From Hypomesus transpacificus (lineage: Eukaryota > Chordata > Actinopteri > Osmeriformes > Osmeridae), in the NCBI RefSeq assembly GCF_021917145.1, contig NC_061068.1, forward strand, positions 12,241,924-12,305,923: DNA of 64,000 bases. The letters are read 5' to 3'. Below, piece by piece: positions 20,946 through 50,008 of the stretch (position 1 is its first letter; each line of letters starts with the position of its first letter). The notes under the pieces are model-generated. The model did no database searches. It saw only the letters and a list, made by a program, of their open reading frames with translations, and was not told where the DNA came from. Both the position numbers and the translations under genes were made by a program.

Positions 20946-21094
20946 GGTAAGTGTCCATGCTGACTTGAGGTATGGCCTGAGCTGCAAGGACATGGCTTAT
21001 AATTGCTTGTCTTGCACATACAGAGCTTTTAACGTAATTTCTTGAGTGCTTATGTTAATCACAATCGTTAGATCATTTGTTGCCTCGATGGTGC

Positions 21095-21400: not shown

Positions 21401-21989
21401 TGCCCTTGATGGTGCCTTATTGTTATACGTTAGGGATAATGCCCGACGAGGTGTACAATATCACCTGATAATGGACGATGCGGAGGCGTGAACCTCCGAT
21501 GCGGTTGCTTCCGCATCGAAATTCGAACTAAACCTAACTGATCACACAGTTTCAAAAAGAGAAGGACAGAAATGTGTTCCACACCAGTGACTCAGACAAG
21601 ATTCAAAAGTACACTTTTCTTCTTGAAAACTCAAATTCACAAGGTGAGAAGGTGTATTTTGGTCTTGTTGGGAAATGTAGGCCTACAGTTCTTCAAGTTC
21701 AACTATTATTTCCATCACCATAAATGTAAATGTAGGCTGAATAGTAAACTTTTCTCCCATCATTTTTTGTGAAAAATTCAATAGATATTAACCCCTTGGA
21801 CCCATTTTTTAATCTTCTGTCTGCTCATCACAATCACAAAGCCATGTGTTGACTATAAGGTTAAAAGAGGGAAAAGTTAGGCCTAGTTCTCATGTGAAGA
21901 ATTGTGTGAAATGAAGTAAAGAAGAGTGAGTTCTCGTTTGGAATGAAATTAATTATGTATTACAAGTAACCCAATGAGTCAAATGTTTT

Positions 21990-28714: not shown

Positions 28715-29315
28715 ATGACTCCTACAGTCACTTCAGCAATAACCTACTCTGAGGAACACCTGACTCTCACTAACAAGGTAAATTGAAGACCCAATGTCAC
28801 AGACTTACATCAACTGCTATATAGTAATGATCTTTATTCATGTTACACTCCAGAATCAGGTTATTAATGTGTTTCCTCTCTATGTTTTCCAGCTAAGAAA
28901 GCCACAGGTGGAGAAGTTACGTAAAGATCGTATCAACAGCAGCATTGAGCAGATCAAGTCTCTCCTGGGTCCAGAACTCTTCAACCAGCAGCCTGACTCC
29001 AAGCTGGAGAAAGCTGACATCCTGGAGATGACAGTTTCTTTATTGAGCCGCCTGCAGCCAATCAGCTCATCTTCCTGCTCTGCACCTACCAATCAGGGTC
29101 ACTCCAGGTGTGTCCAAGAGATGGTGCACTTCCTGTCCAAGGAGGAGATGGAGACAGATTCCCAGAGAAGACTGTTGAGCCACTTCCAGAGCCAGCAGTC
29201 ATCCTCTGATAAGAACAGGAGGAAGACTGACCTGCCTCAGCTGAGCTCCCCAGCCCAGCACAGCATCAGTAAAGAGAAGAGTCCAGTCAACAGCACCCCC
29301 TGGAGGCCCTGGTAG
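28715..29315 (+). CDS. her4: her4-type bHLH-Orange repressor, copy B
   Basis: Exons 28715-28777 and 28893-29315, 161 aa ending WRPW. It has a variant DNA-binding region, EKLRKDRIN instead of EKLRRDRIN, and EQIKSLLGPELFN in helix 1; the first exon has SAITYSEE instead of SARTYSEE. The same set of changes occurs in copy J at 62.6 kb, its mirror partner. The domains are otherwise as in copy A. The conservative R-to-K change sits in the basic region but is unlikely to abolish binding. Confidence 0.95.
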
Positions 29316-30265
29316 AGACCTACAGACTGCAGCTCTACTCCCAGACATGACCATGTTGGTCAGAGATTAACATTACCAATAACACTATTGACAAGTGAAG
29401 ATGATGTTCTGTATGAACAGAACGATTGCTGATTTTGATATTGATCATTACAATCTGAAGCTTTTTTGGTTACCCAAACTGGGTATTATTCATTGAATCT
29501 CTCAGATTTCCTCTGATCTGTTCAAAGGTCAACCAATCTCTTCAGGTTAATCCTGAATTTCACACTACATTTTTGTAGTATTAATTTTGATGTGCATCTC
29601 TGTGAAGTTTGTATCAGTTTGTTTCTATGTAAACTTTCAGTAAGTGATACATTATCACTGTTCCTTCATGAGGATTATTTACCCAAAATGGGTATCACTA
29701 TTATCATCTTTCTGTGATTATTGTTAAACTATCTGTTTCAAGATTAATATATTTACTCAAACTATGAATAACTTTGAAATATTTCTATTGAGGAATATCA
29801 AGTTTTAATTGTCAAACTTCTGTTCATGTTGGACGGATCTAAGTTTTTCAAAAGGATAGTTCTTTAATATGTTTTCTCTACTCTGGTAGTTTATGTTTAA
29901 ATATGCATTGTGAAAGGAGAACATTATTTTCTCTGTAAATGTACTGTTTAAGCTAGACCGATCATTTGCCTTTTGTAAAGACAGACGTTAAATATCTATC
30001 CTCTACTCTGTTAGAGTGCTTATTATGCATATGTTTTATTTGTGTGAAGAAAGGAGAACGTTCTTTTCTCAGTAAACTAACTGTTTATGTTAAATAGTTC
30101 AATGTGTTTTTTGTAAAGACAGATGTTCAATATATATCCTCTACTCTGTTAGAGTACCTTGTGTCTTGGAAACGTGTCCAAGGTATGTTGTGATGTTTAA
30201 TCACTCAGTTTGCCTAATGTTGAGGTATCTATGATGATGTGACTCTCTGAGTCAATTTGAATAAA
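29316..30265 (+). promoter_or_regulatory. her4-type 3' UTR hairpin array, copy B
   Basis: Hairpins read directly: TGACCA-TGT-TGGTCA (29348-29362), GTTCTGT-ATGA-ACAGAAC (29406-29423), TACCCA-AAC-TGGGTA (29471-29485), GAATCT-CTC-AGATTT (29495-29509, one G-T pair), ACTACA-TTTT-TGTAGT (29564-29579), AGTGATA-CAT-TATCACT (29643-29659), TACCCA-AAA-TGGGTA (29680-29694). ACTCTGTTAGAGT-type stems follow near 30,008 and 30,145, and AATAAA at 30260-30265. Confidence 0.7.
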
Positions 30266-30850
30266 TACAATCAACTGAATCTTTCTGGTCCTTGTGCAAA
30301 ACTCCTCTTTTATTTGTTGTCATCATGATAACTTTATGATGCTTTCAGTAGAATGCTAAAATGATAATAATAATTACCTGACATATTACAAAGGTTTTAG
30401 GCTCACTTTTTGCTGGTCAAAAACAAATATACAGTACAATCAATAATGCAAGCCTGAAGACCTTGTATTTTCGAGAGCTATTTAAATGAATTTACCACTA
30501 AGATACATTCACGCAAAAACAAATATAGCACTTTTTAGATTATAATATACAAATGAAAGTAAGTTTGAAATGCTTCAATTAAGTTACAATATTTGTGGTA
30601 AAAAAAAAAGATGAACAGGATCACACATTCTTGTGAAAAATTATTAATCTTTTATAGATATAAACTGCTTCAGTTTGATACATCTTTATGACTTCATAGC
30701 TATTTTACTCTATAAGTTGAAGGTTTTTCAAATAAATATCAGCAGCATTTTATCAGTACTCACAGATAAAGCTCAAAAACGGTTTCATCGTATTGTACTT
30801 CAGATTTGACAGAGGGGTCATCCTTCATATCTTATGAGATGTGCAATAAG
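30266..30850. other. spacer between units B and C
   Basis: AT-rich, no gene. Mirrored at 61,111-61,695, with a diverged relative at 48,464-49,045. Confidence 0.6.
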
Positions 30851-32410
30851 ACACACTTCTATTGTTCCTTAATTGAAGGCAGGGTGTGGGAAACTCAGGA
30901 AACCTCACTCACAGACCCCCTAAGGGACAATAGATAGAGACCCCAGTCCTGGAGTTTAGAGGTCAGAGAGAAGGAGAGAGAGGGGGGGTGCTCCATTCTG
31001 GACCTTCTTTTACATTCAATCCAAAACTATTTAGCACTTCAGGGTTGGACAACATTCTGATTTTTCATGAATACAACGAAACACCTCATTTAGAACATTT
31101 AAAACATATAAATTCTGTGTGAAGTAGTTTTTATATAATATATTTTGATCTATGTTTTTTCCTCATCAAACATGTTATTTTAGTGGCATTCCTCAGACTT
31201 AAGCTTGTAGCACCATCTAGGCTACAATATAAACAACTCTGTAGGTATTTGATTATAGTTTATCACGTGCTGGTTCATAATAGCAGGAACAGACACTTTA
31301 ATAGGTTGAGATGTAAACAAACATCAACAACGTTACCTTATCCTCACATATTACTATTTAGCTCATTTTATACAAACGTATTTACCTCCTGCAGCTCAGC
31401 CAGGGATGGGGTCATTGGTAACTGCTTGGATGGAGATACATTTGCATTGAACAAGTCACACGTGTATTGTTCTGTAGAAGCTTCCTCAATGAGCAGAGTG
31501 TGGGAAAGCTCTGGAGAGCAGAGTCACAGTTCAGTGTCTTTAGCATCCTCAGTCTCAACACCACCAGACTGTCTCTATGGGGAATTGGCACACTTTAGGA
31601 GGAGGAATATTATCCTTCAAAGGAATTTCAGGCTGATGTCATCTGTCAGCCCAGAATGTCAAACATGTACAGAACAAGAGTGTTCATATTTAACTAACAC
31701 CAACATTTGTGTGACCAAATTGAGAATATACACCTGATGGTATATTACTTTTTGGCTGTTTTATGACATTCTTTTTTTATCACTCTAACTTTATTAATGC
31801 TTGTTGTGGTGATCATCCCACAGTATCAGCCAGTGGTGTTTTTTCCCTCCAGATGGCCAGATGGTCTGTGACGTCAGGCTCTGACCATACTACAACACAG
31901 AGCCAATAGCGTCACTAGAGCTCCATTCAGTGTCCTGAACCTCTTTTGTAGTTCATTGACCACAGGACACAGGAATCAGTGTGGGAAACTCAGAGCAGTT
32001 TTCTACTCACACTACAAGACACTCAACACATCTGCTACATCTGGACCTCAAGATGGCTAACACCTCCCTGAAAATAAACAAACTTAACGTGTTTAAATAC
32101 CACTTTTACTGAAATGGACTAAACTAAAAACTCATTTTAAAAAGTATGTACCTGATAATGACTACATGAGCTTCTTGGATTTATTTGGAATCATTACTTT
32201 TTTAAAGAGGTATGGCAGTCAATTTAGAATATAAACAAACCAAATGTCTCACATGCTTTTATAAGAACTGATTATGATTATAATGAACTCAACATAATTT
32301 CTTGAAATTTTACTTTTAAAAAGTATCGAAGAAAACCCATGTATGCATGCTTCTCATAACTGAAGGTTAAGTTACATGGGAAAATCTAACATTAAGGTGT
32401 TTCAGTATCA
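30851..32410 (+). promoter_or_regulatory. upstream regulatory region of her4 copy C
   Basis: Three blocks. (1) ACACACTTCTATTGTTC (30851-30867) with TGTGGGAA (30885-30892). (2) CACACGTGTATTGTTC (31457-31472) with TGTGGGAA (31499-31506); here the CACACTT motif has become a CACGTG E-box. (3) Two CAGATGG E-boxes (about 31853-31866), CRE TGACGTCA (31869-31876), CCAAT (about 31901) and TGTGGGAA (31980-31987). A frame of 184 codons runs across block 2 but is regulatory sequence, not a gene. Confidence 0.65.
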
Positions 32411-32728
32411 CACGTGTGTGTTGAGATGTTGAGCGTGTGCTCTGTCACAGTCATTGATCCAAACATCATGCAGCAGATCTGATCTCTTTACAGGGTCACC
32501 ACTTTCCCAGATCCACACAGCGCTCTGTGAGTCTCTCTCCATCACCCCCCAGTCCTCCACCTGCTCCCCTGAGATGTGACTATTGTCCTCCAGCAATAAG
32601 GACACTGAGCATGAGGCTGCCCCACATTCATCATTGTCTTCCCAAGCTCTCCCATTGGCTGCTGACTGTGAGAAACTCCAACCAGCCCAAGACCCACACA
32701 TTCAAATGGAGATGTGGGACTATATATA
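32411..32728 (+). promoter_or_regulatory. her4-type proximal promoter, copy C
   Basis: CACGTG (32411-32416), CCAAT box, TGTGAGAA and TATATATA (32721-32728). Contains the 51-bp insert (about 32592-32642) that adds a second ATTGTC/ACAAT motif. Confidence 0.72.
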
Positions 32729-32796
32729 GGAGGGATCAAGCCAGTAGAAATCAGATTCACCCTAGACAGTGAACTCTACAACACAGAGATCCAGCC

Positions 32797-33397
32797 ATGA
32801 CTCCTACAGTCACTTCAGCAAGAACCTACTCTGAGGAACACCTGACTCTCACTAACAAGGTAAATTGAAGACCCAATGTCACAGACTTACATCAACTGCT
32901 AAATAGTAATGATCTTTATTCATGTAACATTCCAGAATCAGGTTAATAATGTGTTCCCTCTCTTTCTTTTGCAGCTTAGAAAGCCACAGGTGGAGAAGTT
33001 ACGTAGAGATCGTATCAACAGCAGCATTGAGCAGCTCAAGTCTCTCCTGGGTCCAGAACTCCTCAACCAGCCGCCTGACTCCAAGCTGGAGAAAGCTGAC
33101 ATCCTTGAGATGACAGTTTCTTTATTGAGCCGCCTGCAGCCAATCAGCTCCTCTTCCTGCTCTGCACCTACCAATCAGGGTCACTCCAGGTGTGTCCAAG
33201 AGATGGTGCACTTCCTGTCCAAGGAGGAGATGGAGACAGAGTCCCAGAGAAGACTGTTGAGCCACTTCCAGAGCCAGCAGGCATCCTCTGATAAGAACAA
33301 CAGGGAGACTGACCTGCCTCAGCTGAGCTCCCCAGCCCAGCACAGCATCAGTAAAGAGAAGAGTCCAGTCAACAGCGCCCCCTGGAGGCCCTGGTAG
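32797..33397 (+). CDS. her4: her4-type bHLH-Orange repressor, copy C
   Basis: Exons 32797-32859 and 32975-33397, 161 aa, WRPW intact. NQPPDSKLEK in the loop (Q-to-P compared with A and D) and SQQASSDKNN in the tail mark the C/I pair. Mirror partner is copy I (58.6 kb), which differs only at NQGHSR versus NHCHSR. Followed directly by a partial tandem repeat of its own 3' end. Confidence 0.95.
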
Positions 33398-34751
33398 AGA
33401 CCTACAGACTGCAGCTCTACTCCCAGACATGACCATGTTGGTCAGAGATTAACATTACCAACATCATTATTGACAAGTGAAGATGAAGATGTTCTATATG
33501 AATGGAACAATTGCTGATTTTATTATAGATCATTACGATCTGAAGCTTTTATGGTTCTTTGTAAGGACATTTACCCAAACTGGGCATTATTCATTAAATC
33601 TCTCTGAGATTTCCTCTGATCTGTTCAAAGGTCAACCAAAATCTTCAGGATAATCCTGAATTTCAAACTACATTTTTGTAGTATGAAAACCTGCCTCAGC
33701 TGAGCTCCCCAGCCCAGCACAGCATCAGTAAAGAGAAGAGTCCAGTCAACAGCGCCCCCTGGAGGCCCTGGTAGAGACCTACAGACTGCAGCTCTACTCC
33801 CAGACATGACCATGTTGGTCAGAGATTAACATTACCAACATCATTATTGACAAGTGAAGATGAAGATGTTCTATATGAATGGAACAATTGCTGATTTTAT
33901 TATAGATCATTACGATCTGAAGCTTTTATGGTTCTTTGTAAGGACATTTACCCAAACTGGGCATTATTCATTAAATCTCTCTGAGATTTCCTCTGATCTG
34001 TTCAAAGGTCAACCAAAATCTTCAGGATAATCCTGAATTTCAAACTACATTTTTGTAGTATGAATTTTGATGTGCATCTCTGTGAAGTTTGCACCAGTTT
34101 GTTTCAATGTAAACTTACAGTAAGTGATACATTATCACTGTTCCTCCATGAGGATTATTTACCCAACATGGGTATCACTGTTATCATCTTTCTGTGATTA
34201 TTGTTAACTGATCTGTTTGAAGATCAATATAATCACTCAGACTATGAATAACTTTGAAACATTTCTGTTGAGGACTATTATGTTTTCTTTGTCAAACCTC
34301 TGTTCATGTTGGACAGATCTTTGTCTTTCAAAAAGATAGTCCTTTACAGTAGTATGTTTCCTCTACTCTGTTAAAGTACAGTACCTACTCAGCATATGCA
34401 TTTTGAAAGGAGAACATTATTTTCTCTGTAAATGTACTGTTTATGCTAGACAGATCATTTGCCATTTGTAAAGACAGATGTTTAAAATCCATCCTCTACT
34501 CTGTTAGAGTACTTATTATGCATATGTTATATATGTGTGAAGAAATTATTTTCTCTGTAAACTAACTGTTTATGTTAAATAGTTCAATGTGTCTTTTGTA
34601 AAGACACATGTTCAATATATATCCTTTACTCTGTTAGAGTACCTTGTGTCTTTGGAGACGTTTGCAAGTTATGTTGAGATGTTTATTTACTCTGTCTGCC
34701 TCATGTTGAGGTATCTATGATGATGTGACTCTCTGAGTCAAGTTGAATAAA
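33398..34751 (+). promoter_or_regulatory. her4-type 3' UTR hairpin array, copy C, with internal duplication
   Basis: Same hairpins as copy B with variant arms, for example GTTCTAT-ATGA-ATGGAAC and AAATCTC-TCT-GAGATTT. A 377-bp segment (33312-33688) that includes the last 86 bases of coding sequence is repeated at 33689-34065. AATAAA at 34746-34751. Confidence 0.7.
33689..34065 (+). pseudogene. tandem duplicate of the her4 copy C 3' end
   Basis: Second copy of 33312-33688. It begins inside the tail of exon 2, includes the WRPW codons and TAG, and continues into the first hairpins. It has no bHLH and no start, so it only lengthens the copy C 3' UTR. The same duplication is present beside copy I. 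Confidence 0.9.
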
Positions 34752-35220
34752 TACAATCAACTGAATCTCCGTGTCCCTTAGCTTGTCTGTTTTTCATCAT
34801 TGGCCCAGTTGAATATCTTACCATGGATCTTAGAACTGATTGAGAATATACAAAAATCATGATAACTGCACATTTTCAAAAAAAAAACTTACAAAGTATT
34901 AATTTTTCTTTAGTTTTAGACATTGTTCAAGAAGGTATATATCATTTTCTTCTTATTTGTCAAGACATATTTACAACTGAAATTACAAACCTACTCATGG
35001 GAAATGTATTTAACAAAATATTTTGTTGTGAATTCATGTGGATGTATGTAAAACAGTTTTTTTGCACATACCATACATCATATGTGTATATATTTAGTTT
35101 CGGAATTTGCTTCCGCTATTTCGCAGATTTTGCGTTCATTGTTCTTTTTATTGTTTAGAGCTGCAATTTCTTTGCTACTGTTTCCTCAACGATGAGGTCA
35201 TCCTCCAAAGCTGACGTGAT
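34752..35220. other. spacer between units C and D
   Basis: AT-rich; a 99-codon frame (34859-35158) is shared exactly by the mirror and tandem copies at 56.8 and 52.7 kb but has no protein-like features. I take it as noncoding. Confidence 0.5.
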
Positions 35221-35230
35221 GTGCAATAAG

Positions 35231-36901
35231 ACACACTTCTATTGTTCCTTAATTGAAGGCAGGGTGTGCGAAACTGAGGAAAACTCACTCACAGACCCCC
35301 TATGGGACAATATATACAGACCCAGTCCTTGAGGTTAGAGGTCGGAGAGAAGGAGAGGGGGGGAGTCTCCATTTTGGACAATATTTTTACATGAATTGCA
35401 AAACTGCTATGCACTTTAGGGTTGGACAATATCCCAATTTGATTTGCAAAATATAAAGCATAATTGAGACTGTTTAAACCATTTAAACTGTGTCAGATGT
35501 AGCTTTTATAAAATACATAATTATTTACCTTTTCATGCAATCAAATCTGTGATATCATTCGTTTAACACCATTTAGCCATGTAGAACCATCCAGGCTACA
35601 AGTTACACAACCTTGTAGGTATTTGATTGTTACACAATCTTACAAACATTTAATTAATTGTATAATTTACCTCACTTTATCGGGTATATGCCATTCTGAA
35701 GAGAAGAATAGTTTGTTTACACTGCAAAGCTTAGTACTCTACAGTCAGGTGCTGGTTCATAATGACAAGAACAACCCCTTTATGTGTTCAGATGTAAACA
35801 AACAAATCAACAAATGTACTTTATTTTCACATCTTAGTATTTACCTTATTCTATATAAATGTATTTACCTCCTGCAGTTCAGCCAGGGATGGGGTCGTAG
35901 GTAGCTTCTTGGAAAGAGATGAATTAACATTGAACAAGGCACACGTGTATAGTTCCGTAGAAGCTCCCTCAATGAGCAGAGTGTGGGAAAGCTCTGGAGA
36001 GCAGAGTCACAGTTCAGTGTCTTTAGCATCCTCAGTTCCAACACCACCAGTCGGTCTCTATGGGGAATTGGCACACTTTAGGAGGAGGAATAACAATTAT
36101 CCATCAAAGGAATTTCAGGCTGATGTCATCTGTCAGCCAAGAATGTAAAACATGTACAGAACAAGAGTGTTCATATTTGACGAACACCAAGCGTTTCTGT
36201 GATAAAACTGACAAAATACACCTGAGACTATTATGTTGCAGCTATTTTATAATGAATATTTGTAATTATTGATATCTTTAACTGTGTAAATGTTTGTTGT
36301 GATAATTAGCCCACAATTTCCGCCAGTGGTGTTCTTTCCCTCCAGATGGCCAGATGGTCTGTGACGTCAGGCTCTGACTATACTACAACAGAGCCAATAG
36401 CATCACTAGAGCTCCATTCAGTGTCCTGAACCTCTTTTGTAGTTCATTGACCACAGGACACAGGAATCAGTGTGGGAAACTCAGAGCAGTTCTCTACTCA
36501 CACTTCAAGACACTCAACACATCTGCTACATCTGGACCTCAAGATGGCTAACACCTCCCTGAAAATAAACAATCTTAACGTGTTTAAATACCACTTTTAC
36601 TGAAATGGACAAAAATAAAAACTAATTTTAAAAAGTATGTACCTGATATTGACTACATGAGCTTCTTAGATTTATTTGGAATCATTACATTTTTTAAGAG
36701 GTATGGCGGTAAATTTAGATTATAAACAAACCAAATGTCTCACATGCTTTCATAAGAACTGGTTATGATTATAATGAACTCACCATAATTTCTTGAAATT
36801 TAACTTTAAAAAAGTATAGAAGAAAACCCATGTATGCATGCTTCTCATAATTGAAGATTAAGTTACATTGGAAAATCTAACAATAAGGTGTGTCAGTATG
36901 A
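35231..36901 (+). promoter_or_regulatory. upstream regulatory region of her4 copy D
   Basis: ACACACTTCTATTGTTC followed by a mutated RBPJ site TGTGCGAA (35265-35272); CACACGTGTATAGTTC with TGTGGGAA (35982-35989); two CAGATGG, CRE TGACGTCA (36362-36369) and TGTGGGAA (36471-36478). Confidence 0.62.
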
Positions 36902-37219
36902 CACGTGTGTGTTGAGAGGATGAGCGTGTGCTCTGACAGAGTCATTGATCCCAACATCAGGCAGCAGATCTGATCTCTTTACAGGGTCACCACTTTCCCA
37001 GATCCACACAGCGCTCTGTGAGTCTCTCTCCATCACCCCCCAGCCCTCCACCTACTCCCCTGAGATGTGACTATTGTCCTCCAGCAATAAGGACACTGAG
37101 CATGAGGCTGCCCCACATTCATCATTGTCTTCCCAAGCTCTCCCATTGGCTGCTGACTGTGAGAAACTCCAACCAGCCCAAGACCCACACATTCATATGG
37201 AGATGTGGGACTATATATA
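36902..37219 (+). promoter_or_regulatory. her4-type proximal promoter, copy D
   Basis: CACGTG (36902-36907), 51-bp insert present, CCAAT box, TGTGAGAA, TATATATA (37212-37219). Confidence 0.72.
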
Positions 37220-37287
37220 GGAGGGATGAAGCCAGTAGAAATCAGATTCACTCTACACAGTGAACTCTAAAACACAGAGATCCAGCC

Positions 37288-37888
37288 ATGACTCCTACAG
37301 TCACTTCAGCAAGAACCTACTCTGAGGAACACCTGACTCTCACCAACAAGGTAAATTGAAGACCCAATGTCACAGACTTACATCAACTGCTAAATGGTAA
37401 TGATCTTCAGTCATGTTACACTCCAGAATCAGGTTATTAATGTGTTTCCTCTCTTTCTTTTGCAGCTTAGAAAGCCACAGGTGGAGAAGTTACGTAGAGA
37501 TCGTATCAACAGCAGCATTGAGCAGCTCAAGTCTCTCCTGGGTACAGAACTCCTCAACCAGCAGCCTGACTCCAAGCTGGAGAAAGCTGACATCCTGGAG
37601 ATGACAGTTTCTTTATTGAGCCGCCTGCAGCCAATCAGCTCCTCTTCCTGCTCTGCACCTACCAATCAAGGTCACTCCAGGTGTGTCCAAGAGATGGTGC
37701 ACTTCCTGTCCAAGGAGGAGATGGAGACAGAGTCCCAGAGAAGACTGCTGAGCCACTTCCAGAGCCAGCAGTCATCCTCTAATAAGAACAACAGGGAGAC
37801 TGACCTGCCTCAGCTGAGCTCCCCAGCCCAGCACAGCATCAGTAAAGAGAAGAGTCCAGTCAACAGCACCCCCTGGAGGCCCTGGTAG
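37288..37888 (+). CDS. her4: her4-type bHLH-Orange repressor, copy D
   Basis: Exons 37288-37350 and 37466-37888, 161 aa, all domains and WRPW intact. LLGTELLNQQPDSK and SSSNKNN distinguish it. Position mirrors copy H, yet the coding exon is more like A/E than H (QQP rather than QPP), so the palindrome's near-identity stops at this gene. Gene conversion from another copy is a possible reason. Confidence 0.95.
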
Positions 37889-38846
37889 AGACCTACAGAC
37901 TGCAGCTCTACTCCGAGACATGACCATGTTGGTCAGAGATTAACATTACCAACAACATTATTGACAAGTGAAGATGATGTTCTGTATGAACAGAACGATT
38001 GCTGATTTTGATATTGATCATTACAATCTGAAGCTTTTTTGGTTACCCACACTGGGTATTATTCATTGAATCTCTCAGATTTCCTCTGATCTGTTCAAAG
38101 GTCAACCAATCTCTTCAGGATAATCCTGAATTTCACACTACATTTTTGTAGTATGAATTTTGATGTGCATCTCTGTGAAGTTTGCACCAATTTGTTTTTA
38201 TGTAAACTTACAGTAAGTGATACATTATCACTGTTCCTCCATGAGGATTATTTACCCAAAACAGGTATCACTGTTATCATCTTTCTGTGATTATTGTTAA
38301 ATGATCTGTTTTAAGATTAATATATTTCTCAAACTATGAATAACTTTGAAATATTTCTATTGAGGAATATCAAGTTTTCTTTGTCAAACTTCTGTTCATG
38401 TTGGACAGATCTTTGTATTTCAAAAAGATAGTCCTTTACAGTTATATGTTTCCTCTACTCTGTTAAAGTACAGTACCTACTCAGCATATGCATTTTGAAA
38501 GGAGAACATTATTTTCTCTGTAAATGTACTGTTTATGCTAGACAGATCATTTGCCTTTTGTAAAGACAGACGTTTAATATCTATCCTCTACTCTGATAGA
38601 GTACTTATTATGCATATGTTATATATGTGTGAAGAAAGTTGAACATTCTTTTCCCTTTAAACTAACTGTTTATGTTAAATAGTTCAATGTGTCTTTTGTA
38701 AAGACAGATGTTCAATATATATCCTTTACTCTGTTAGAGTACCTTGTGTCTTTGGAGACTGTCCAAGTTATGTTGTGATGTTTAATTACTCTGCCTCATG
38801 TTGAGGTATATATGATGATGTGACTCTCTGAGTCAAGTTGAATAAA
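37889..38846 (+). promoter_or_regulatory. her4-type 3' UTR hairpin array, copy D
   Basis: Among the clearest examples: TTCAGGA-TAA-TCCTGAA (38114-38130), TGTCTTT-TGT-AAAGACA (38690-38706), TACTCT-GTT-AGAGTA (38727-38741), TGACTC-TCT-GAGTCA (38821-38835), plus GTTCTGT-ATGA-ACAGAAC, ACTACA-TTTT-TGTAGT, AGTGATA-CAT-TATCACT and TACCCA-CAC-TGGGTA. AATAAA at 38841-38846 lies in the loop between AGTTG and CAACT. Confidence 0.72.
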
Positions 38847-39230
38847 TACAATCAACTGAATCTCTCTGTCCCTTAGCTTGTCTGTTTTTCATCATTAACC
38901 CAGTTGAATGTCTTACCATGGACTCAGAACTGATTGAGAATATACAAAAATCATGATAACTGCAGTTTTTCAAAAAAAAATCTTACAAAGTATTAACTTT
39001 TCTGTAGTTTTAGAAATTGTTCAAGATGTATTGTTGTGAATTCATGTGAATGTATGTAAAACACTTTTTTGCACATACCATACATCACATGTGAATGCAT
39101 TTAGTTTCGGAATTTGCTTCCGGTATTTCGCAGATTTTGCGCTCATTGTTCTTTTTATTGTTTAGAGCTGCAATTTCTTTGCTACTGTTTCCTCAATGAT
39201 GAGGTCATCCTCCAAAGCTGACGTGATGTG
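38847..39230. other. spacer between units D and E
   Basis: AT-rich, no gene; similar to 34,752-35,220 but shortened by about 100 bases, and related to the reverse complement of 44,580-44,940. Confidence 0.55.
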
Positions 39231-39239
39231 CAATAAGAC

Positions 39240-41761
39240 ACACTTCTATTGTTCCTTAATTGAAGGCAGGGTGTGGGAAACTGAGGAAAACTCACTCACA
39301 GACCCCCTATGGGACAATATATACAGACCCAGTCCTTGAGGTTAGAGGTCGGAGAGAAGGAGAGGAGGGGAGTCACCATTCTAGGCAATATCTTTACATG
39401 AATTGCAAAACTGCTATGCACTTTAGGGTTGGACATATATCCCAATTTGATTAGCAAAATATAAAGCATAATTGAGACTGTTTAAACCATTTAAACTGTG
39501 TCAGATGTAGCTTTTATAAAATACATCATTATTTACCTTTTCATGCAATCAAATCCGTGATATCATTCTTTTAACACCATTTAGCCATGTAGAACCATCC
39601 AGGCTACAAGTTACACAACCTTGTAGGTATTTGATTGTTACACAATCTTACAGACATTTATTTAATTGTAACATTTACCTCAGTTTATCGGTATATGCCA
39701 TTCTGAGGAGAAGAATAGTTTGTTTACACTGCAAAGCTTAGTACTCTACAGTCAGGTGCTGGTTCATAATGACAAGAACAACCCCTTCATGTGTTCAGAT
39801 GTAAACAAACAAATCAACAAATTTACTTCATTTTCACATCTTAGTATTTACCTCATTCTCTATGTATTTACCTCCTGCAACTCAGCCAGGGATGGGGTCG
39901 TAGGTAGCTTCTTGGAAAGAGATGAATTAACATTGAACAGGGCACGCTTGTATTGTTCTGTAGAAGCTCCTTCAATGAACAGAGTGTGGGAAAGCTCTGG
40001 AGAGCAGAGTCACAGTTCAGTGTCTTTAGCATCCTCAGTCTCAACACCACCAGACTGTCTCTATGGGGAATTGGCACACTTTAGGAGGAGGAATAACAAT
40101 TATCCTTCAAAGGAATTTCAGGCTGATGTCATCTGTCAGCCAAGAATGTCAAACATGTACAGAACAAGAGTGTTCATATTTAACGAACACAAAGCGTTTC
40201 TGTAATAAAACTGACAAAATACACTTGTTGCTGCTATTTTATAATGAATATTTGTAATTATTTATATCTTTAACTGTGTAAATGTTTGTTGTGATAATTA
40301 GCCCACATAATCAGCCAGTGGTGTTCTTTCCCTCCAGATGGCCAGATGGTCTGTGACGTCAGGCTCTGACTATACTACAACACAGAGCCAATAGCGTCAC
40401 TAGAGCTCCATTCAGTGTCCTGAACCTCTTTTGTAGTACATTGACCACAGGACACAGGAATCAGTGTGGGAAACTCAGAGCAGTTCTCTACTCACACTAC
40501 AAGACACTCAACACATCTGCAACATCTGGACCTCAAGATGGCTAACACCTCCCTGAAAATAAACAATCTTCAAGAGTTTAGAGACCTCCTGGACTGAAGT
40601 AGATGTCACGGGGACCATATTCAGTACCGTATTAAACCAACTAGCTGCAGGTGTGCAGCAGGGAAGCACCCAGCTGGTCGCAATTAACCGGGGGATTGGG
40701 AGGGTTTTTAAACTCAGATCACCGTCAATCAAGGCGCGTTGGGACTGGAAGGAGAACTGAAACTGGAGGCGGAGAGAGGACTGGAAGCGGAGAGAAGGAC
40801 TGGAAGCAGAGAGAGAGGACTGGAAGCAGAGAGAGAGGACTGGAAGCAGAGAGAGAGGACTGGAAGCAGAGAGAGAGGACTGGGGGAGCAAGGGACTGCA
40901 ACACAGCGCGCACGGAGACGGACTTTCGCCGAAGCTGAGTACCGTGAATTCTACGCAGTCAAGCTTGTGGAACGTGCTGCCCGGACTGCTCGGCCTATTG
41001 ATACACCTGAGTTTGAGGTTTTATCCACAACTGTGTTACGCTTGCACACGTGAGTTTGATGTGTGGTGTGCCCATGTTCCACTGTTTTACAGATTTTGCC
41101 GTTCATGCACTAGTTGGAGCACCCTGCAGTCCCGGGTGGGCGATAGGATTACGTCCAGTGTGCGCAGAATAATCAATCGGACTATTCCAGCAGTCTCCGG
41201 ATAACCCCCCTTCCCCCTGCTGGAGGAGGCCAGTATCAGCGGCCACCAGAGGAACCAGGCTACCTTATCTCCTGCCAGAGCCTCTTGAGGCGATCAACAA
41301 CAAGGACTTCCTTTTCTTTTTTTATTTCTTTTTACCAATAAATCTAATACATTTTATACCTCGATTCTACGAGTTTTGGCATCTTTTGAGTGGGAGATAC
41401 GTTTTGCTCCTCAGAGTAAGAGTAGACTAAGTGGAGGCACCAGCGCCCCCACCTGTGACATAGACTTACCTTAAAAGATCATTCACATAATTATGTATCT
41501 TAATTATAATCTACATGAGCTTCATATAATTGTTTTAATTGATACAATTTTCAAAAGGTTACATGAATAGATAAAGAATGTAGAGTAAACAAACTGCCTA
41601 TATCATGTGCTTTACAAAACAATTTTGCTTAATTCAATAAGTTCATCATGATTGCAGAAAGTATGATTTTATTAATGACATATCTCCATTATTCATGATT
41701 TTGAAAGCTGAAGTTTAGGTCCTACTTTAAGATCTCATGTAAAAGAGCTGAGCCAGTATCA
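39240..41761 (+). promoter_or_regulatory. upstream regulatory region of her4 copy E, split by an LTR
   Basis: ACACTTCTATTGTTC with TGTGGGAA (39272-39279); CTTGTATTGTTC with TGTGGGAA (39985-39992); two CAGATGG, CRE (40354-40361) and TGTGGGAA (40465-40472). An 857-bp solo LTR (40604-41460) then separates these blocks from the promoter. Confidence 0.6.
40604..41460 (+). mobile_element. solo LTR of a retrotransposon (Gypsy-like)
   Basis: Begins TGTCAC and ends GTGACA, flanked on both sides by the 4-bp target-site duplication TAGA (40600-40603 and 41461-41464). Inside are a 19-bp tandem repeat (GAGAGAGGACTGGAAGCAG, about 40,790-40,880) and a polyadenylation-like CAATAAATC near 41,336. No internal region or second LTR is present, as expected after LTR-LTR recombination. 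It is absent from all other her4 units, so it postdates their duplication. Family assignment rests on the TSD length and termini only. Confidence 0.8.
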
Positions 41762-42025
41762 CACGTGTGTGTTGAGATGATAAGTGTGTGCTCTGTCTGA
41801 GTCATTGATCCCAACATCAGCAGCAGATCTGATCTCTTTACAGGGTCACCACTTTCCCAGATCCACACAGCGCTCTGTGAGTCTCTCTCCATCCCCCCAG
41901 CCCTCCACCTGCTCCCCTAAGATGTGACTATTGTCCTCTCAAGCTTTCCCATTGGCTGCAGACTGTGAGAAACTCCAACCTGCCCAAGACCCACACATTC
42001 ATATGGAGATGAGGATCTATATATA
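41762..42025 (+). promoter_or_regulatory. her4-type proximal promoter, copy E
   Basis: CACGTG (41762-41767), CCAAT-like CCCATTGGCT, TGTGAGAA, TATATATA (42018-42025). No 51-bp insert; a short duplication (CAGATT...GAAGCC) lies between TATA and ATG. Confidence 0.7.
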
Positions 42026-42104
42026 GGAGGGATGAAGCCAGTAGAATTCAGATTGAAGCCAGATTCACTCTACACAGTGAACTCTACAACACAGCAATCC
42101 AGCC

Positions 42105-42759
42105 ATGTCTCCTACAGTCACTTCAGCAAGAACCTACTCTGAGGAACACCTGACTCTCACCAACAAGGTAAATTGAAGACCCAATGTCACAGACTTACAT
42201 CAACTGCTAAATAGTAATGATCTTTATTCATGTTACACTCCAGAATCAGGTTATTAATGTGTTTCCTCTCTTTCTATTGCAGCTTAGAAAGCCACAGGTG
42301 GAGAAGTTACGTAGAGATCGTATCAACAGCAGCATTGAGCAGCTCAAGTCTCTCCTGGGTCCAGAACTCCTCAACCAGCAGCCTGACTCCAAGCTAGAGA
42401 AAGCTGACATCCTGGAGATGACAGTTTCTTTATTGAGCCGTCTGCAGCCAATCAGCTCCTCTTCCTGCTCTGCACCTACCAATCAGGGTCACTCCAGGTG
42501 TGTCCAAGAGATGGTGCACTTCCTGTCCAAGGAGGAGATGGAGACAGAGTCCCAGAGAAGACTGTTGAGCCACTTCCAGAGCCAGCAGTCATCCTCTGAT
42601 AAGAACAACAGGGAGACTGACCTGCCTCAGCTGAGCTCCCCAGCCCAGCACAGCATCAGTAAAGACAAGAGTCCAGTCAACAGCGCCCCTGGAGGCCCTG
42701 GTAGAGACCTACAGACTGCAGCTCTACTCCCAGACATGACCATGTTGGTCAGAGATTAA
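42105..42759 (+). CDS. her4: her4-type bHLH-Orange protein, copy E, WRPW lost by frameshift
   Basis: Exons 42105-42167 and 42283-42759, 179 aa. The N-terminus reads MSPTVTSARTYSEEH and the bHLH and Orange regions match the other copies. One C is missing from the run of five C seen in copies C, F, H and I (here at about 42,686-42,689), so the frame shifts: instead of ending in WRPW it continues APGGPGRDLQTAALLPDMTM and stops 57 bases later. Such a protein could still dimerise and bind DNA but should not recruit Groucho/TLE through WRPW. A one-base sequencing error in a C-run cannot be excluded. Confidence 0.88.
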
Positions 42760-43692
42760 CATTACCAACAACATTATTGAGTTGAGTATAAGTGAAGATG
42801 TTCATTATGAATGGAACGATTGCTGATTTTGTCATAGATCGTTACGATCTGAAGCTTTTATGGTTCTTTGTAAGGACATTTACCCAAACTGGGCATTATT
42901 GATTAAATCTCTTTGAGATTTCCTCTGATCTGTTCAAAGGTCAACCAATCTCTTCAGGATAATCCTGAATTTCACACTACATTTTTGTAGTATGAATTTT
43001 GATGTGCATCTCTGTGAAGTTTGCACCAGTTTGTTTCTATGTAAACTTACAGTAAGTGATACATTATCACTGTTCCTCCATGAGGATTATTTACCCAACG
43101 TGGGTATCACTATCATCTTTCTGTGATAATTTTTTACTGATCTGTTTCAAGATCAATATATTTACTCAGAATATGAGTTACTTTGAAATATTTCTATTGA
43201 GGAATATCAAGTTTTCTTTGTCAAACTTCTGTTCATGTTCGACAGATCTTTGTCTTTCTAAAAGATGGTTCTTTGATATGTTTCCTCTACTCTGTTAGAG
43301 AACAGTGCCTACCCAGCATATGTTCAAATATGCATGATGAATGGAAAACATTATTTTCTCTGTAAATGTACTGTTTATGCTAGGCAGATCATTTGCCTTT
43401 TGTAAAGACAGACGTTCAATATCTATCTTCTACTCTGTTAGAGTACTTATTATGCATTTGTTTTGGATGTGTGAAGAAAGAAGAACATTATTTTCCCCGT
43501 AAACTAACTGTTTATGTTAAATAGTTCAATGTGTCTTTTGTAAAGACAGATGTTCAATATATATCCTCTACTCTGTTAGAGTACCTTGTGTCTTGGAGAC
43601 GTGTCCAAGTTATGTTGTGATGTTTAATCACTCTGTCTGCCTCATGTTGAGGTATCTATGATGATGTGACTCTCTGAGTCAAGTTGAATAAA
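42760..43692 (+). promoter_or_regulatory. her4-type 3' UTR hairpin array, copy E
   Basis: Contains AGATCG-TTA-CGATCT near 42,837-42,851 (other copies have A in place of the first G of the stem), TTCAGGA-TAA-TCCTGAA, ACTACA-TTTT-TGTAGT, AGTGATA-CAT-TATCACT, TGTCTTT-TGT-AAAGACA, TACTCT-GTT-AGAGTA, TGACTC-TCT-GAGTCA and AATAAA at 43687-43692. Confidence 0.7.
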
Positions 43693-44957
43693 TACAATCC
43701 ACTGAAACTTTTTTGTCCTTTTGCACTATTCCCCTCTCAATTAATAGCATTAGTACTTCTAGTTAGTAAATCTATTTACATCATCCTGTTCTTTCGTTAG
43801 TCAAAGCATACATTTTAATCAAACAATCTGAGCCTATATCAGTCATATCAAGGTGAGAAAATTATCATTATATTTATGTTATAAATCTGTATATTATGTA
43901 TCTTCATTCAAAACTACTCCCTTAATTAATAGCATTGTGTCCACGTTATAATGCTAATACCTGTACTAGCACTACATATTAGTATTCCCAGCACCAATGA
44001 CAGAAATCCACAAAATAATATTGACTACAATGAACTATTATATAAACAAAGATGTGTTCAGGTTAAATGATTGTATTTGCTTTGTCACAAAAAAGATGTA
44101 TGGCAATCCTATTTAAACCTTACAGAAGATTCAGTTGATTGGTGGTTTTGTAGTTGCAAAGTATTGAGTTATATTTAACATTGACTTTTGCATTAGATTA
44201 GAATTAGCATCTTATCCATATATACATACAAAAATACACAGGATGTCTAATAAGTACTCTAGTAGATGATAGATAATAAGAAACAGTCTTCATGAAAGAC
44301 TTGCAAATCTTTCCAACACAAATAATGCAAAATATATATATTTTATATCTATGTTATATTTGTATAATATGATCTTGGATTGAAGATAATCAAATTTCAG
44401 GGTTTGCTCTTGATATGACTGATATAGTTTGAGATTGTGGATTACATGGTCAAAAGCTGATGTTTAATGCTCAGAAGACTGTCATCATATTTGTATAATC
44501 ACTGTAACATACAGCTGAATGCACTGTAAAAAAAACACATTGTTATTAATAAAGAGAGGGAAATGGAAAAAGGATGAACACAAAGTCTGCAAAATACCGG
44601 AAGCAAATTCCGAAACTAAATGCATTTACATGTGATGTATGATATGTGCAAAAAACTGTTTTACATACATCCACATGAATTCACATCAAAATATCTTGTT
44701 AATTACATTTCCCATGAGTAAGTTTGTAATTTCAGTTGTAAATATTTCTTAAAAAATAGGAAGAAAATGATATATACCTTCATGAACAATGTCTAAAACT
44801 AAAGAAAAGTTAATACTTAAGTAAACATTTTGAAAATTTGCAGTTATCATGATTTGTGTATATTCTCAATCAGTTCTAAGATCCATGGTCAGATATTCAA
44901 CTGGGCCAATGATGAAAAACAGACAAGCTAAGGGACAGAGAGATTCAGTTGATTGTA
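43693..44957. other. centre of the her4 array, between convergent copies E and F
   Basis: AT-rich, no gene. The right half (44,580-44,940) is the reverse complement of spacer sequence downstream of copies C and D, while the left half is unrelated, so the centre is not a simple hairpin. Symmetry axis of the E/F gene pair is near 44,307. Confidence 0.6.
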
Positions 44958-45908
44958 TTTATTCAACTTGACTCAGAGAGTCACATCATCATAGATACCT
45001 CAACATGAGGCAGACAGAGTAATTAAACATCACAACATAACTTGGACACGTCTCCAAAGACACAAGGTACTCTAACAGAGTAAAGGATATATATTGAACA
45101 TCTGTCTTTACAAAACACACATTGAACTATTTAACATAAACAGTTAGTTTACGGGGAAAATAATGTTCTCCTTTCTTCACACATACAAAACATATGCATA
45201 ATAAGTACTCTAACAGAGTAGAGGATAGATATTAAACGTCTGTCTTTAAAAAAGGCAAATGATCTGTTTAGCATAAACAGTACATTTACAGAGAAAATAA
45301 TGTTCTCCTCTCACAATGCATATTTAAACATATGCTGGGTAGGTACTGTTCTCTAACAGAGTAAAGGAAACATATCAAAGACCTATCTTTTTGAAAGACT
45401 TAGATCTGTCCAACATGAACAGAAGTTTGACAAAGAAAACTTGATATTCCTCAATAGAAATATTTCAAAGTTAAAGATCATTTAACAATGATCACAGAAA
45501 GATGATAACAGTGATACCCAAGTAGGGTAAATAATCCTCATGGAGGAACAGTGATAATGTATCACTTACTGTAAGTTTACATTGAAACAAACTGGTGCAA
45601 ACTTCACAGAGATGCACATCAAAATTCATACTACAAAAATGTAGTGAGAAATTCAGGATTATCCTGAAGAGATTGGTTGACCTTTGAACAGATCAGAGGA
45701 AATCTCAAAGAGATTTAATCAATAATGCCCAGTTTGGGTAAATGTCCTTACAAAGAACCATAAAAGCTTCATATCGTAATGATCTATGACAAAATCAGCA
45801 ATCTTTCCATTCATATAGAACATCTTCACTTGTCAATAATGTTGTTGGTAATGTTAATCTCTGACCAACATGTACATGTCTGGGAGTAGAGCTGCAGTCT
45901 GTAGGTCT
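44958..45908 (-). promoter_or_regulatory. her4-type 3' UTR hairpin array, copy F
   Basis: TTTATT (44958-44963) is the complement of AATAAA. Hairpin series as in E on the - strand; the GTTCTAT stem has lost its outer pair and one TACCCA stem is shortened to five pairs. Confidence 0.62.
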
Positions 45909-46509
45909 CTACCAGGGCCTCCAGGGGGCGCTGTTGACTGGACTCTTCTCTTTCCTGATGCTGTGCTGGGCTGGGGAGCTCAGCTTAGGCAGGTCAGTCT
46001 CCCTGTTGTTCTTATCAGAGGATGACTGCTGGCTCTGGAAGTGGCTCAGCAGTCTTCTCTGGGACTCTGTCTCCATCTCCTCCTTGGACAGGAAGTGCAC
46101 CATCTCTTGGACACACCTGGAGTGACCCTGATTGGTAGGTGCAGAGCATGAAGAGGAGCTGATTGGCTGCAGACGGCTCAATAAAGAAACTGTCATCTCC
46201 AGGATGTCAGCTTTCTCCAGCTTGGAGTCAGGCGGCTGGTTGAGGAGTTCTGGACCCAGGAGAGACTTGAGCTGCTCAATGCTGCTGTTGATACGATCTC
46301 TACGTAACTTCTCCACCTGTGGCTTTCTAAGCTGCAAAAGAAAGAGAGGAAACACATTAATAACCTGATTCTGGAATGTAACATGAATAAAGATCATTAC
46401 TATTTAGCAGTTGATGTAAGTCTGTGACATTGGGTCTTCAATTTACCTTGTTGGTGAGAGTCAGGTGTTCCTCAGAGCAGGTTCTTGCTGAAGTGACTGT
46501 AGGAGACAT
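45909..46509 (-). CDS. her4: her4-type bHLH-Orange repressor, copy F
   Basis: Exons complement(46447-46509) and complement(45909-46331), 161 aa, MSPTVTSARTCSEEH start (as copy E with Y-to-C), QPPDSK loop, DLPKLSSPAQHSIRKEKS tail, WRPW intact. Domains as in copy A. First gene on the - side of the array, tail to tail with E. Confidence 0.95.
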
Positions 46510-48463: not shown

Positions 48464-49045
48464 TTATTGCACATCTCATAAGATATGAAGGATGACCCCT
48501 CTGTAAAATCTGAAGTACAATACGATGAAACAGTTTTTGAGCTTTATCTGTGAGTACTGATAAAAGGCTGCTAATATTTATTTGAAAAACCTTCAACTTA
48601 TAGAGTAAAATAGCTATGAAGTACTAAAGATTATCACAATGAAGCAGTTTATATCTATAAAAGATTAACAATTTTTTTACAAGAACGTGTGATCCTGTTC
48701 ATCTTTTTTTTAACCACAAATATTGTAACTTAATTGAAGCATTTCAAACTTACTTTCATTTTAATATTATCATCAAAACAGTACTATATTTGTTTTTGCG
48801 TGAATGTATCTTGGTGGTAATTTCTTTTAACTAGCTCTCGAAAATACAAGGTCTTCAGGCTTGCATTATTGATTGTACTGTATATTTGTTTTTGCCCAGC
48901 AAAAGGTGAGCCTAAAACCTTTGTATGTGTCAGGTAATTATTATTATCATTTTAGCATTCTACTGAAAGCATCATAAAGTTACCATGATAACAAACAAGA
49001 AAAGAGGAGTTTTGCACAAGGACCAGAAAGATTCAGTTGATTGTA
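48464..49045. other. spacer between units F and G
   Basis: AT-rich, no gene; a diverged relative of 30,266-30,850 in reverse orientation. Confidence 0.55.
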
Positions 49046-50008
49046 TTTATTCAACTTGACTCAGAGAGTCACATCATCATAGATCCCTCAACATGAGGCA
49101 AACTGAGTGATTAAACATCACAACATACCTTGGACACGTTTCCAAGACACAAGGTACTCTAACAGAGTAGAGGATATATATTGAACATCTGTCTTTACAA
49201 AAGACACATTGAACTATTTAACATAAACAGTTAGTTTACGGGGGAAATTATTTTCTCCTTCCTTCACACATAGAAAATATATGCATAATAAGTACTCTAA
49301 CAGAGTAAAGGATAGATATTGAACGTCTGTCTTTACAAAAGGCAAATGATCTGTTTAGCATAAACAGTACATTTACAGAGAAAATAATGTTCTCCTTTCA
49401 CCATACATATTTAAACATATGCTGGGTAGGTACTGTACACAGAGTAGTGGAAACATATTAAAGAACTATCTTTTTGAAAGACAAAGATCTGTCCAACATG
49501 AACAGAAGTTTGACAAAGAAAACTTGATATTCCTCAATAGAAATATTTTAAAGTTATTCATAGTCTGAGTAAATATATTAATCTTAAAACAGATCATTTA
49601 ACAATAATCACAAAAAGATGATAACAGTGATACCCATTTTGTGTAAACAATCCTCATGAAGGAACAGTGATAATGTATCACTTACTGTAAGTTTACATAG
49701 AAACAAACTGGTGCAAACTTCACAGAGATGCACATCAAAATTAATACTACAAAAATGTAGTGTAAATTCAGGATTATCCTGAAGATATTGGTTGACATTT
49801 GAACAGATCAGAGGAAATCTGAGAGATTCAATGAATAATACCCAGTTTGGGTAACCAAAAAAGCTTCAGATTGTAATGATCAATATCAAAATCAGCAATT
49901 GTTCTGTTCATACAGAACATCATCTTCACTTGTCAATAATGTTTTAAGCAATGTTAATCTCTGACCAACATGGTCATGTCTGGGAGTAGAGCTGCAGTCT
50001 GTAGGTCT
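49046..50008 (-). promoter_or_regulatory. 3' region of her4 pseudogene G, hairpins partly degraded
   Basis: TTTATT (49046-49051) is the complement of AATAAA. GTTCTGT-ATGA-ACAGAAC is kept, but one TACCCA/TGGGTA stem carries a mismatch and one run of the TACTCT stem is lost (about 49,437-49,446). Confidence 0.55.

Follow-up and report, generated by a model that had tools for sequence, protein, structure and literature searches.

The 3' untranslated regions (3' UTRs) of a cluster of Notch-target repressor genes in the fish Hypomesus transpacificus carry short perfect hairpins, dominated by loops of three nucleotides (triloops), at a density far above chance. The stretch of DNA that we analyzed, hereafter the window (64,000 nt, C9:12241924-12305923 of a 437-Mb genome), contains a cluster of basic helix-loop-helix repressor genes, one her2-like, two her15-like (a and b) and ten her4-like copies (A to J). 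By stem and loop, a large share of the hairpins are most likely of the type recognized by Roquin, i.e., constitutive decay elements (CDEs; stems of 6-8 bp with pyrimidine-purine-U or pyrimidine-purine-N triloops, YRU or YRN), together with hexaloops of the alternative decay element (ADE) type in her4. We consider it rather probable that the hairpins of her4 and her15, and those of her2 as well, make up a multi-hairpin decay platform of the Roquin/Regnase type, on which these proteins would bind and hasten the decay of the message.

Hairpin excess in the her 3' UTRs

An initial annotation of this DNA had described the her4-type 3' UTRs as runs of small perfect hairpins that would serve Roquin-mediated decay. 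The five hairpins it quoted are located exactly at 29348, 29643, 38114, 38690 and 38821, and the hairpins themselves are real and in excess of dinucleotide-preserving shuffles in every copy from A to H. Its limits (29316-43692) covered the four copies on the + strand and missed the six on the - strand, and the her15 and her2 genes, whose UTRs show the same feature, went unnamed. Triloops were counted as Watson-Crick stems of at least 6 bp with a 3-nt loop, against 1000 shuffles per UTR. Copies A to H have 6, 9, 8, 10, 7, 7, 9 and 9 of them (0.41-0.51 expected, 0/1000 shuffles), her15a and her15b have 4 and 5 (0.25 and 0.35 expected; 0/1000 and 1/1000) and her2 has 2 (0.14 expected, 12/1000). 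In copies A, C and E, stems of at least 5 bp gave 8, 11 and 10 triloops versus 1.55-1.78 in shuffles, and stems of at least 6 bp gave 6, 8 and 7 versus 0.43-0.53 (0/300 each time); with at least 7 bp and loops of 3-8 nt, only C was clear (4 hairpins, 0/300), A and E having two each (35/300 and 49/300). Triloop density was 7.47/kb in the her4 UTRs (88 in 11,785 nt) and 5.82/kb in those of her15 and her2 (12 in 2,061 nt), compared with 0.64/kb in the rest of the window (32 in 50,154 nt), where 46 non-UTR tiles of 978 nt had 0-3 triloops apiece, and 0.38/kb in other loci of the genome. Counting all perfect hairpins with stems of at least 6 bp and loops of 3-8 nt, each her4 UTR of ca. 970-1010 nt holds 11-15. 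Shuffles and window tiles thus rule out chance as the source of the triloops in her4 and her15. An origin in a mobile element or repeat family was also discarded, since a genome search with the copy C UTR, which scored the best candidates only, gave 12 matches, all of them her4 copies of the window, and no Rfam family matched the window at gathering score. Pattern searches for relatives returned 8 matches in viral contigs and 132 in genome contigs, none of which was a relative.

Two loop sizes stand out. With strict pairing, triloops were raised in all ten UTRs scanned (A to G, her15a, her15b and her2; 300 shuffles). With one G-U pair allowed, hexaloops were raised in five of seven her4 copies (A, D, E, F and G, p ≤0.04), without reaching significance in B (p 0.13) and C (p 0.10); strict stems raised them only in D, and a slightly looser count in all eight copies A-H (2-25 of 1000 shuffles). 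Tetraloops were weakly raised (her15b, p 0.043; A, C, F and G, p 0.07-0.08). The pentaloops of her15 (p 0.003 and 0.007) include several UGU triloops closed by U-G, and loops of 7-12 nt were at chance, apart from 8-nt loops in E (p 0.043) and 9-nt loops in C (p 0.03). Triloops do dominate, as the initial annotation had it, and the hexaloop class is what it left out. The ROQ domain of Roquin takes tri- and hexaloops and discriminates against tetra- and pentaloops, as reported in PMC11609897.

Folding energies point the same way. Local minimum free energy (MFE; span 60, 60 shuffles) gave the her4 UTRs z scores of -3.2 to -5.8 and the two her15 UTRs -3.4 and -3.7, whereas 25 of the 46 tiles, folded on both strands as 50 controls, had a mean of -0.09 (sd 1.5). 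Whole-UTR folds (20 shuffles each) reached -8.05 for copy C (-5.84 antisense) and -2.18 for the sense strand of her15b. Individual hairpins were assessed by partition-function estimates of pairing (local span 120). The TTCAGGA-TAA hairpin is predicted to pair at 0.81-0.92 in all eight copies, AGTGATA-CAT at 0.15-0.91 and TGACCA-TGT at 0.10-0.79, but at 0.00 in F. The second ADE hairpin ranges from 0.92-0.97 (B, D, E and H) through 0.37-0.47 (A and C) to 0.03 (G) and is absent in F; the UGU/UAU elements of her15 lie at 0.05-0.96 and the two her2 hairpins at 0.97 and 0.66. In the high-confidence CDE set of PMC6294493, predicted folding is given as >5%. Between paralogs, hairpin retention exceeded the neutral expectation in 20 of 20 comparisons listed, of 56 possible (C to E, 5 versus 2.5; E to A, 3 versus 1.8), which we take as supporting evidence only because the copies are homogenized and stem divergence from C to F was not lower than the comparison value (0.065 versus 0.063).

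Loop sequence, strand and covariation

The published rules for Roquin sites (PMC6294493 and PMC11609897), in which a CDE has a 6-8 bp stem and a YRN triloop, best YRU, were applied to both strands of the window as follows: stems of at least 6 bp with a YRU (or YRN) triloop for CDEs, and the hexaloop [G/A]UUN[U/C/A][A/G] with one G-U allowed for ADEs. YRU triloops number 33 on the sense strand of the her UTRs (2.39/kb, 9 distinct), 4 on the antisense (2 distinct) and 2 in the other 100 kb of strand sequence; for YRN triloops the counts are 48, 5 and 21, respectively. All 19 ADE-rule hexaloops (8 distinct) are sense, with none antisense or elsewhere in the window. Many YRU and ADE matches are copies of one another, and the rates in 180 kb of other strand sequence of the genome (0.017/kb for YRU, 0.039/kb for ADE) indicate that both arise by chance too. 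By copy, six her4 UTRs have three YRU triloops, A has two and F one (32/1000 shuffles), with a single antisense one in each of B, D and H. ADE matches are three in D and E (0/1000), two in C, F and G (1-3/1000) and one in A, B and H (33-59/1000), and the published ADE loop GUUUUA is present in C and G. When the triloops were reduced to 21 hand-listed, non-redundant loci, 8 were YRU versus 1.88 expected (p 3e-4) and 11 YRN versus 5.24 (p 0.006); dropping three related UGU loci left 5/18 YRU (p 0.018), and antisense YRU stood at 1 versus 1.59. YRN loops look more conserved than the others, a suggestive impression by eye. Measured closing-pair preferences of Roquin (Y-R with middle G, R-Y with middle A; PMC6294493 and PMC11609897) are matched by the TGTCTTT-TGT, AGTGATA-CAT and TTTACA-TAT types and unmatched by TGACCA-TGT and CTGTTCA-TGT.

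One element recurs often enough for covariation to be followed. Scanning the sense her UTRs gave 29 occurrences of the core TTT-(TGT/TGC/TAT/CAT)-RAA, of which 22 formed the alignment (the other seven are identical to included rows), giving 21 distinct rows with none dropped for poor pairing. In this UGU element (CUUU-UGU-RAAG), 82.3% of cells are paired, versus 40-64% when slid, double-changed cells number 22 versus 10.7 in shuffles (0/500) and the covariation score is 0.352 versus 0.200 (0/500). The outer stem shows coordinated changes at three pairs (U-A/C-G/G-C; G-C/U-A/A-U; U-A/A-U/G-C), and 22 of the 63 cells of the three outermost pairs are unpaired. Six rows close on U-G, which on the other strand would be A-C. 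By three of five measures, the UGU element covaries across 21 distinct paralogous rows. In her15a (15980-16221) tandem repeats of 23 and 89 nt are built around it, which suggests that it expanded by duplication. The her4 array itself, aligned over 16 hairpins and eight copies, has 96.8% of its cells paired versus 36-39% when slid; three of its double-changed pairs were set aside, all in helix 16, where copy E is misaligned or non-homologous. The low divergence of the paralogs means that this array offers no strong covariation test.

The comparison was extended to other hes genes, taking as UTR the 1000 nt that follow the stop (400 nt in her2). Searching the genome for Hairy_orange gave 16 matches, and a her4 search also gave a second cluster, on C18, and two more her4 copies, K and L, lie ca. 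9 and 12 kb beyond the window (96 and 91% coding DNA identity). Genes were grouped as Hes5-type by blastp scores, no tree being used: scored against whichever of her4A, her15a and her2 matches best, the C18 genes, K and L reach 135-247 bits and six other genes with a WRPW end ≤34 bits. Eight hes-like loci without WRPW (L013, L015, L016 and L018-L022) were left out. The six Hes5-type UTRs outside the dense array (her2, three of C18, K and L) have 10 triloops versus 2.49 expected and 5 YRU versus 0.20 (0/3000 shuffles both), with no antisense YRU. A strict YRU hairpin occurs in four of the six (two in her2), and the her15-like gene of C18 (- strand) has one only with a G-U pair. In the six other WRPW genes there was 1 triloop versus 2.35 and no strict YRU versus 0.17, two of them (L012 and L014) having a YRU stem with one G-U. 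In general hairpin counts, the UTRs of C18, K and L have 3-5 where 1.5-1.9 are expected, and those of the six other WRPW genes 0-2. Such modest numbers set the ten her4 copies and her15 apart by their dense array, while the CDE-type hairpin is a wider, though non-universal, Hes5-type trait in this genome. The K and L 3' UTRs gave no blastn alignment with those of A, C and E; the first stop-proximal hairpin can still be seen by eye in both (GATCA-TGT-TGGTC and CTGATCA-TTT-TGGTCAG). Adjoining the C18 cluster, another gene, a 92-codon open frame, is followed 200 nt past its stop by GTCTTT-TGT-AAAGAC (L027 889-903, ca. 4620889), which shares its six inner pairs and its loop with the her4 element.

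A putative decay platform and its alternatives

If the hairpins act as Roquin sites, several Roquin (Rc3h1/2) molecules might bind one her mRNA at once, perhaps with Regnase, and could recruit CCR4-NOT deadenylation and decapping, by which transcripts of these Notch-target repressors would be kept short-lived; several CDE and ADE hairpins do co-occur within one her4 UTR. PMC11172303 reports expression of the rc3h genes in zebrafish embryos and, as a database prediction, links between the Roquins of this fish and members of CCR4-NOT, and her1/her7 mRNA levels depend on the CCR4-NOT deadenylase according to the review PMC9403190. On the wider proposal, that Hes5-type Notch-target repressors form a Roquin regulon, with the CDE as a class property expanded in her4 and her15 into an array of about a dozen hairpins (CDE, ADE and triloops of no assigned type), and with a decay pathway best known from immune cells setting the message lifetime of embryonic Notch feedback, we are evenly divided. 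Fast removal of hes/her mRNA matters for Notch feedback and oscillation (PMC9403190), and only some of the elements responsible have been defined. If the arrays are Roquin sites, they could explain the quick disappearance of her4, her15 and her2 messages, mutating the loops or the rc3h genes would put the half-life of Notch-target repressor mRNAs to the test, and Roquin would have a part to play in development as well as in the immune system.

AU-rich or Pumilio-type decay elements have reportedly been found for her1. As the main signal here, linear motifs were rejected. In six UTRs (A, C, E, her15a, her15b and her2) UGUANAUA was absent, K-, Brd- and GY-boxes were near chance, and AUUUA occurred 0-2 times in five (1.1-3.0 expected), with a small excess in E (6 versus 3.7).

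The Roquin reading of the initial annotation is partly supported, by the strand bias, the ADE loops, the covariation of the UGU element and the CDEs of Hes5-type genes, and several observations weigh against it, among them loop sequence and predicted folding. The sense strand is enriched in YRU and YRN loops and the antisense is not, yet 10 of the 21 triloop loci fall outside YRN (GUU, UCU, UUU, AAC and others) and 13 outside YRU; among all sense triloops, 51 (3.69/kb), about half, are non-YRN, and the Roquin reading leaves them unexplained. No ADE-rule hexaloop was found in the her15 or her2 UTRs. Some YRU hairpins break the published preferences (A-U closing with middle G), and a 10-bp stem in B and H and the U-G pairs of some her15 elements depart from the CDE norm. 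Both canonical GUUUUA hairpins are predicted to fold poorly: that of copy C (38302..38319) pairs at 0.37 locally and 0.04 globally, and with 0.03 for G both rank with the poor folders. The first ADE hairpin pairs at 0.38-0.96 in B, D, E, F and H and at 0.00 in A, C and G, and TGTCTTT-TGT, at 0.88-0.92 in five copies, falls to 0.08 in A and to 0.00 in both E and F. The her2 UTR has no folding excess (local z 0.03), the lowest control fold reaches -3.35, and the UTR of L014, a non-Hes5 hes gene, has an MFE z of -3.04. Neither G-U pairs nor MFE gave a clear strand difference: antisense local z values are similar (her4, -2.5 to -5.7) and G-U-tolerant counts do not separate the strands, so that the strand evidence consists of loop sequence and U-G closing pairs. 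In the covariation check, which bore out the repeated UGU element, the her4-only alignment supplied one trustworthy double change (A-U/G-C at columns 104/111), and for the UGU element neither the pairs with a double change (216/500) nor further pair types (350/500) exceeded shuffles. The her4 UTRs, ten in the initial annotation, amount to about seven distinct sequences, which limits their independence. Outside the window, K, L and the C18 cluster lack the dense array, copy L has no YRU hairpin and one ADE-rule hexaloop, and a hes1-like UTR (L011) also has an ADE-rule hexaloop. None of the hes or Notch terms looked for occurs in the main texts of the Roquin target papers PMC6294493, PMC6145892 and PMC4510711.

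A different reader might account for the loops outside the Roquin rules. About half of the triloop loci are of this kind and some are repeated or conserved (TACTCT-GTT-AGAGTA, TGACTC-TCT-GAGTCA), and Regnase-1 also favors pyrimidine-purine-pyrimidine triloops and has been linked to a hexaloop, as reported in PMC5603727. Regnase-1 would be a strong alternative or partner, with loop preferences overlapping those of Roquin. That a platform for decay or translation control would be read mainly by Regnase/Zc3h12 or by some unknown triloop reader, with Roquin minor or absent, nevertheless seems unlikely to us, given that within the window ADE-rule hexaloops are confined to the sense strand of these UTRs and that the preference of her4 for loops of 3 and 6 nt mirrors the one measured for the ROQ domain.

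Strong local folding, and stems that stay while their loops vary, as in TACCCA-(AAA/ACA/ACG)-TGGGTA, would also be expected if structure were selected for itself, with compact folding shortening or shielding the UTR, spacing sites or blocking long-range pairing, and no reader of the loops. This leaves the YRU and ADE biases, the strand asymmetry and the strong preference for 3 nt unpredicted, and we find it improbable. Least credible of all is a neutral by-product, inverted repeats that template switching or repeat expansion would have created and gene conversion carried from one tandem copy to another, because, although the copies are homogenized (91-100% identical apart from E), an internal repeat lies in part of each UTR examined (A, C and E), her15a has two tandem arrays and MFE is alike on both strands, the background DNA has hardly any excess, if any (0.64/kb in the rest of the window, 0.38/kb at other loci), the bias is common to UTRs without detectable similarity (her15, her2 and C18) and missing in other hes genes, Roquin-rule loops are mostly sense, and the UGU element covaries. 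A Roquin/Regnase-type platform remains the reading that we prefer.

The locus and known Roquin-type systems

The HLH family of Pfam matched all three gene types tested, her2, her15 and her4. Hairy_orange was above cut-off only in her2, below it in her15 and unlisted for her4 exon 2, and the WRPW end is found in her2, both her15 and 8 of 10 her4 frames. The names her2, her15 and her4 are those that we presume from resemblance. They agree with the teleost hes5-type gene set of PMC8320183, where the zebrafish her2, her15 and her4 types are placed on two chromosomes; here all three lie in one C9 cluster (9616-63361), with the second Hes5-type cluster on C18. An aldehyde-dehydrogenase exon is also in the window (Pfam Aldedh match, one frame tested). 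In nine of the ten her4 copies the 3' UTR measures ca. 970-1010 nt and ends in AATAAA (longer in B and I by a 377-nt duplication), and in E the first AATAAA lies ca. 2.1 kb downstream of the stop. The 3' UTRs of A and J are identical, as are those of B and I, and B and H share 99.6% identity, which is how ten reduce to about seven; apart from E, the most divergent, the copies are 91-100% identical. An inverted duplication with arms of ca. 11 kb (27961-39026 versus 64000-52913, 98.9% identity) lies in the window, the A/J gene pair being identical over 1691 nt, and is either a real palindrome or an assembly effect. The tandem duplication of B and I, comprising the end of the coding sequence and the start of the UTR, doubles the proximal hairpins. 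In copy D a base is missing ahead of the WRPW codons (region 42690-42759), so that the frame continues across the first hairpin until a stop at 42759. The coding region of copy G (50009-50430) is frameshifted by the loss of one base early in its exon 2 and contains additional stops. The UTR hairpins are kept in both damaged copies. Downstream of her15a (ca. 16830-17100) there is a minisatellite of short units (CTACAGGACCTACATGTCTCTGGAGTCC...).

Table 1. Coordinates in the window of the her 3' UTRs, of individual hairpins and of the tandem duplication.
Feature	Position	Strand	Remarks
her2 CDE-type TTTACA-TAT-TGTAAA	9768..9782	-	3' UTR
her2 CDE-type CTTCAC-CAT-GTGAAG	9790..9804	-	3' UTR
her15a 3' UTR	15450..16380	+	triloops, repeated CUUU-UGU-RAAG; loops 15671, 15862, 15984, 16055, 16143
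her15b 3' UTR	18597..19306	-	same elements as her15a; loops 19085, 18894, 18856
her4 copy E 3' UTR	20892..23051	-	includes AACCTTT-TGT-AAAGGTT at 21994-22010
her4 copy A 3' UTR	29313..30282	+	11 perfect hairpins (stem ≥6, loop 3-8), 6 triloops
377-nt tandem duplication, copy B	33312-33687 / 33689-34064		
her4 copy B 3' UTR	33395..34768	+	with 377-nt duplication; 9 triloops in distal UTR 33772-34768
her4 copy C 3' UTR	37886..38863	+	array reference copy; 8 triloops vs 0.45 expected; whole-UTR MFE z -8.05
CDE-type TGACCA-TGT-TGGTCA	37921..37935	+	copy C; YRU; perfect in 7/8 of A-H
Tetraloop GTTCTGT-ATGA-ACAGAAC	37979..37996	+	copy C; G-C to A-U double change in other copies (columns 104/111)
ADE-type hexaloop TGATCT-GTTCAA-AGGTCA	38087..38104	+	one U-G; kept in 7/8, one pair broken in G
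YRN triloop TTCAGGA-TAA-TCCTGAA	38114..38130	+	perfect in 7/8 copies
CDE-type AGTGATA-CAT-TATCACT	38216..38232	+	YRU, A-U closing; invariant 8/8
ADE-type hexaloop TGATCT-GTTTTA-AGATTA	38302..38319	+	one G-U; published wild-type ADE loop GUUUUA
CTGTTCA-TGT-TGGACAG	38392..38408	+	YRU, one U-G; pair is C-G in copy E
TACTCT-GAT/GTT-AGAGTA	38589..38603	+	non-Roquin loop
CDE-type TGTCTTT-TGT-AAAGACA	38690..38706	+	YRU, U-A closing
TACTCT-GTT-AGAGTA	38727..38741	+	non-Roquin loop
TGACTC-TCT-GAGTCA	38821..38835	+	non-Roquin loop
her4 copy D 3' UTR	42702..43709	+	10 triloops, 3 ADE-type hexaloops (strict stems: 43138, 43316)
her4 copy F 3' UTR	44941..45911	-	
her4 copy G 3' UTR	49029..50011	-	
her4 copy H 3' UTR	53077..54073	-	
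her4 copy I 3' UTR	57193..58566	-	same 377-nt duplication as B
377-nt tandem duplication, copy I	57897-58272 / 58274-58649		
her4 copy J 3' UTR	61679..62648	-	identical to A

The initial annotation knew of no description of such an array for her genes, and we found none among the matches listed in openly licensed papers. Fast hes/her decay has been ascribed, in the review PMC9403190, to a 25-bp element of Xenopus hes4, to CCR4-NOT acting on her1/her7 and to miR-9 acting on Hes1/her6. The cases there share with ours the 3' UTR of Hes-family repressors and a rapid decay that here would follow from the hairpins, but they work through a short conserved element, poly(A) length or microRNAs instead of a hairpin array. 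With the CDEs of UCP3 and TNF, as described in PMC6294493, the her hairpins have in common the 6-8 bp stem and the YRU triloop, both as YAU with A-U closing (AGTGATA-CAT-TATCACT, TTTACA-TAT-TGTAAA) and as UGU with Y-R closing (TGTCTTT-TGT-AAAGACA), whereas several of them have non-preferred closing pairs, U-G pairs or stems >8 bp. The pair of CDE-like and ADE-like elements in Ox40 (PMC5603727) likewise joins a triloop and a U-rich hexaloop in one UTR; her4 has many more elements, and different stems with a G-U pair. The closest precedent, by analogy, would be the 3' UTR of Nfkbid, whose minimal Roquin response element comprises six stem-loops acting together, according to PMC6145892. The likeness would be that of a multi-stem-loop UTR of putative Roquin type. 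Compared with that account of Nfkbid, the her4 array is longer (11-15 perfect hairpins in ca. 970-1010 nt) and includes many non-YRN triloops, and the genes that carry it are Notch-target bHLH repressors in a fish.

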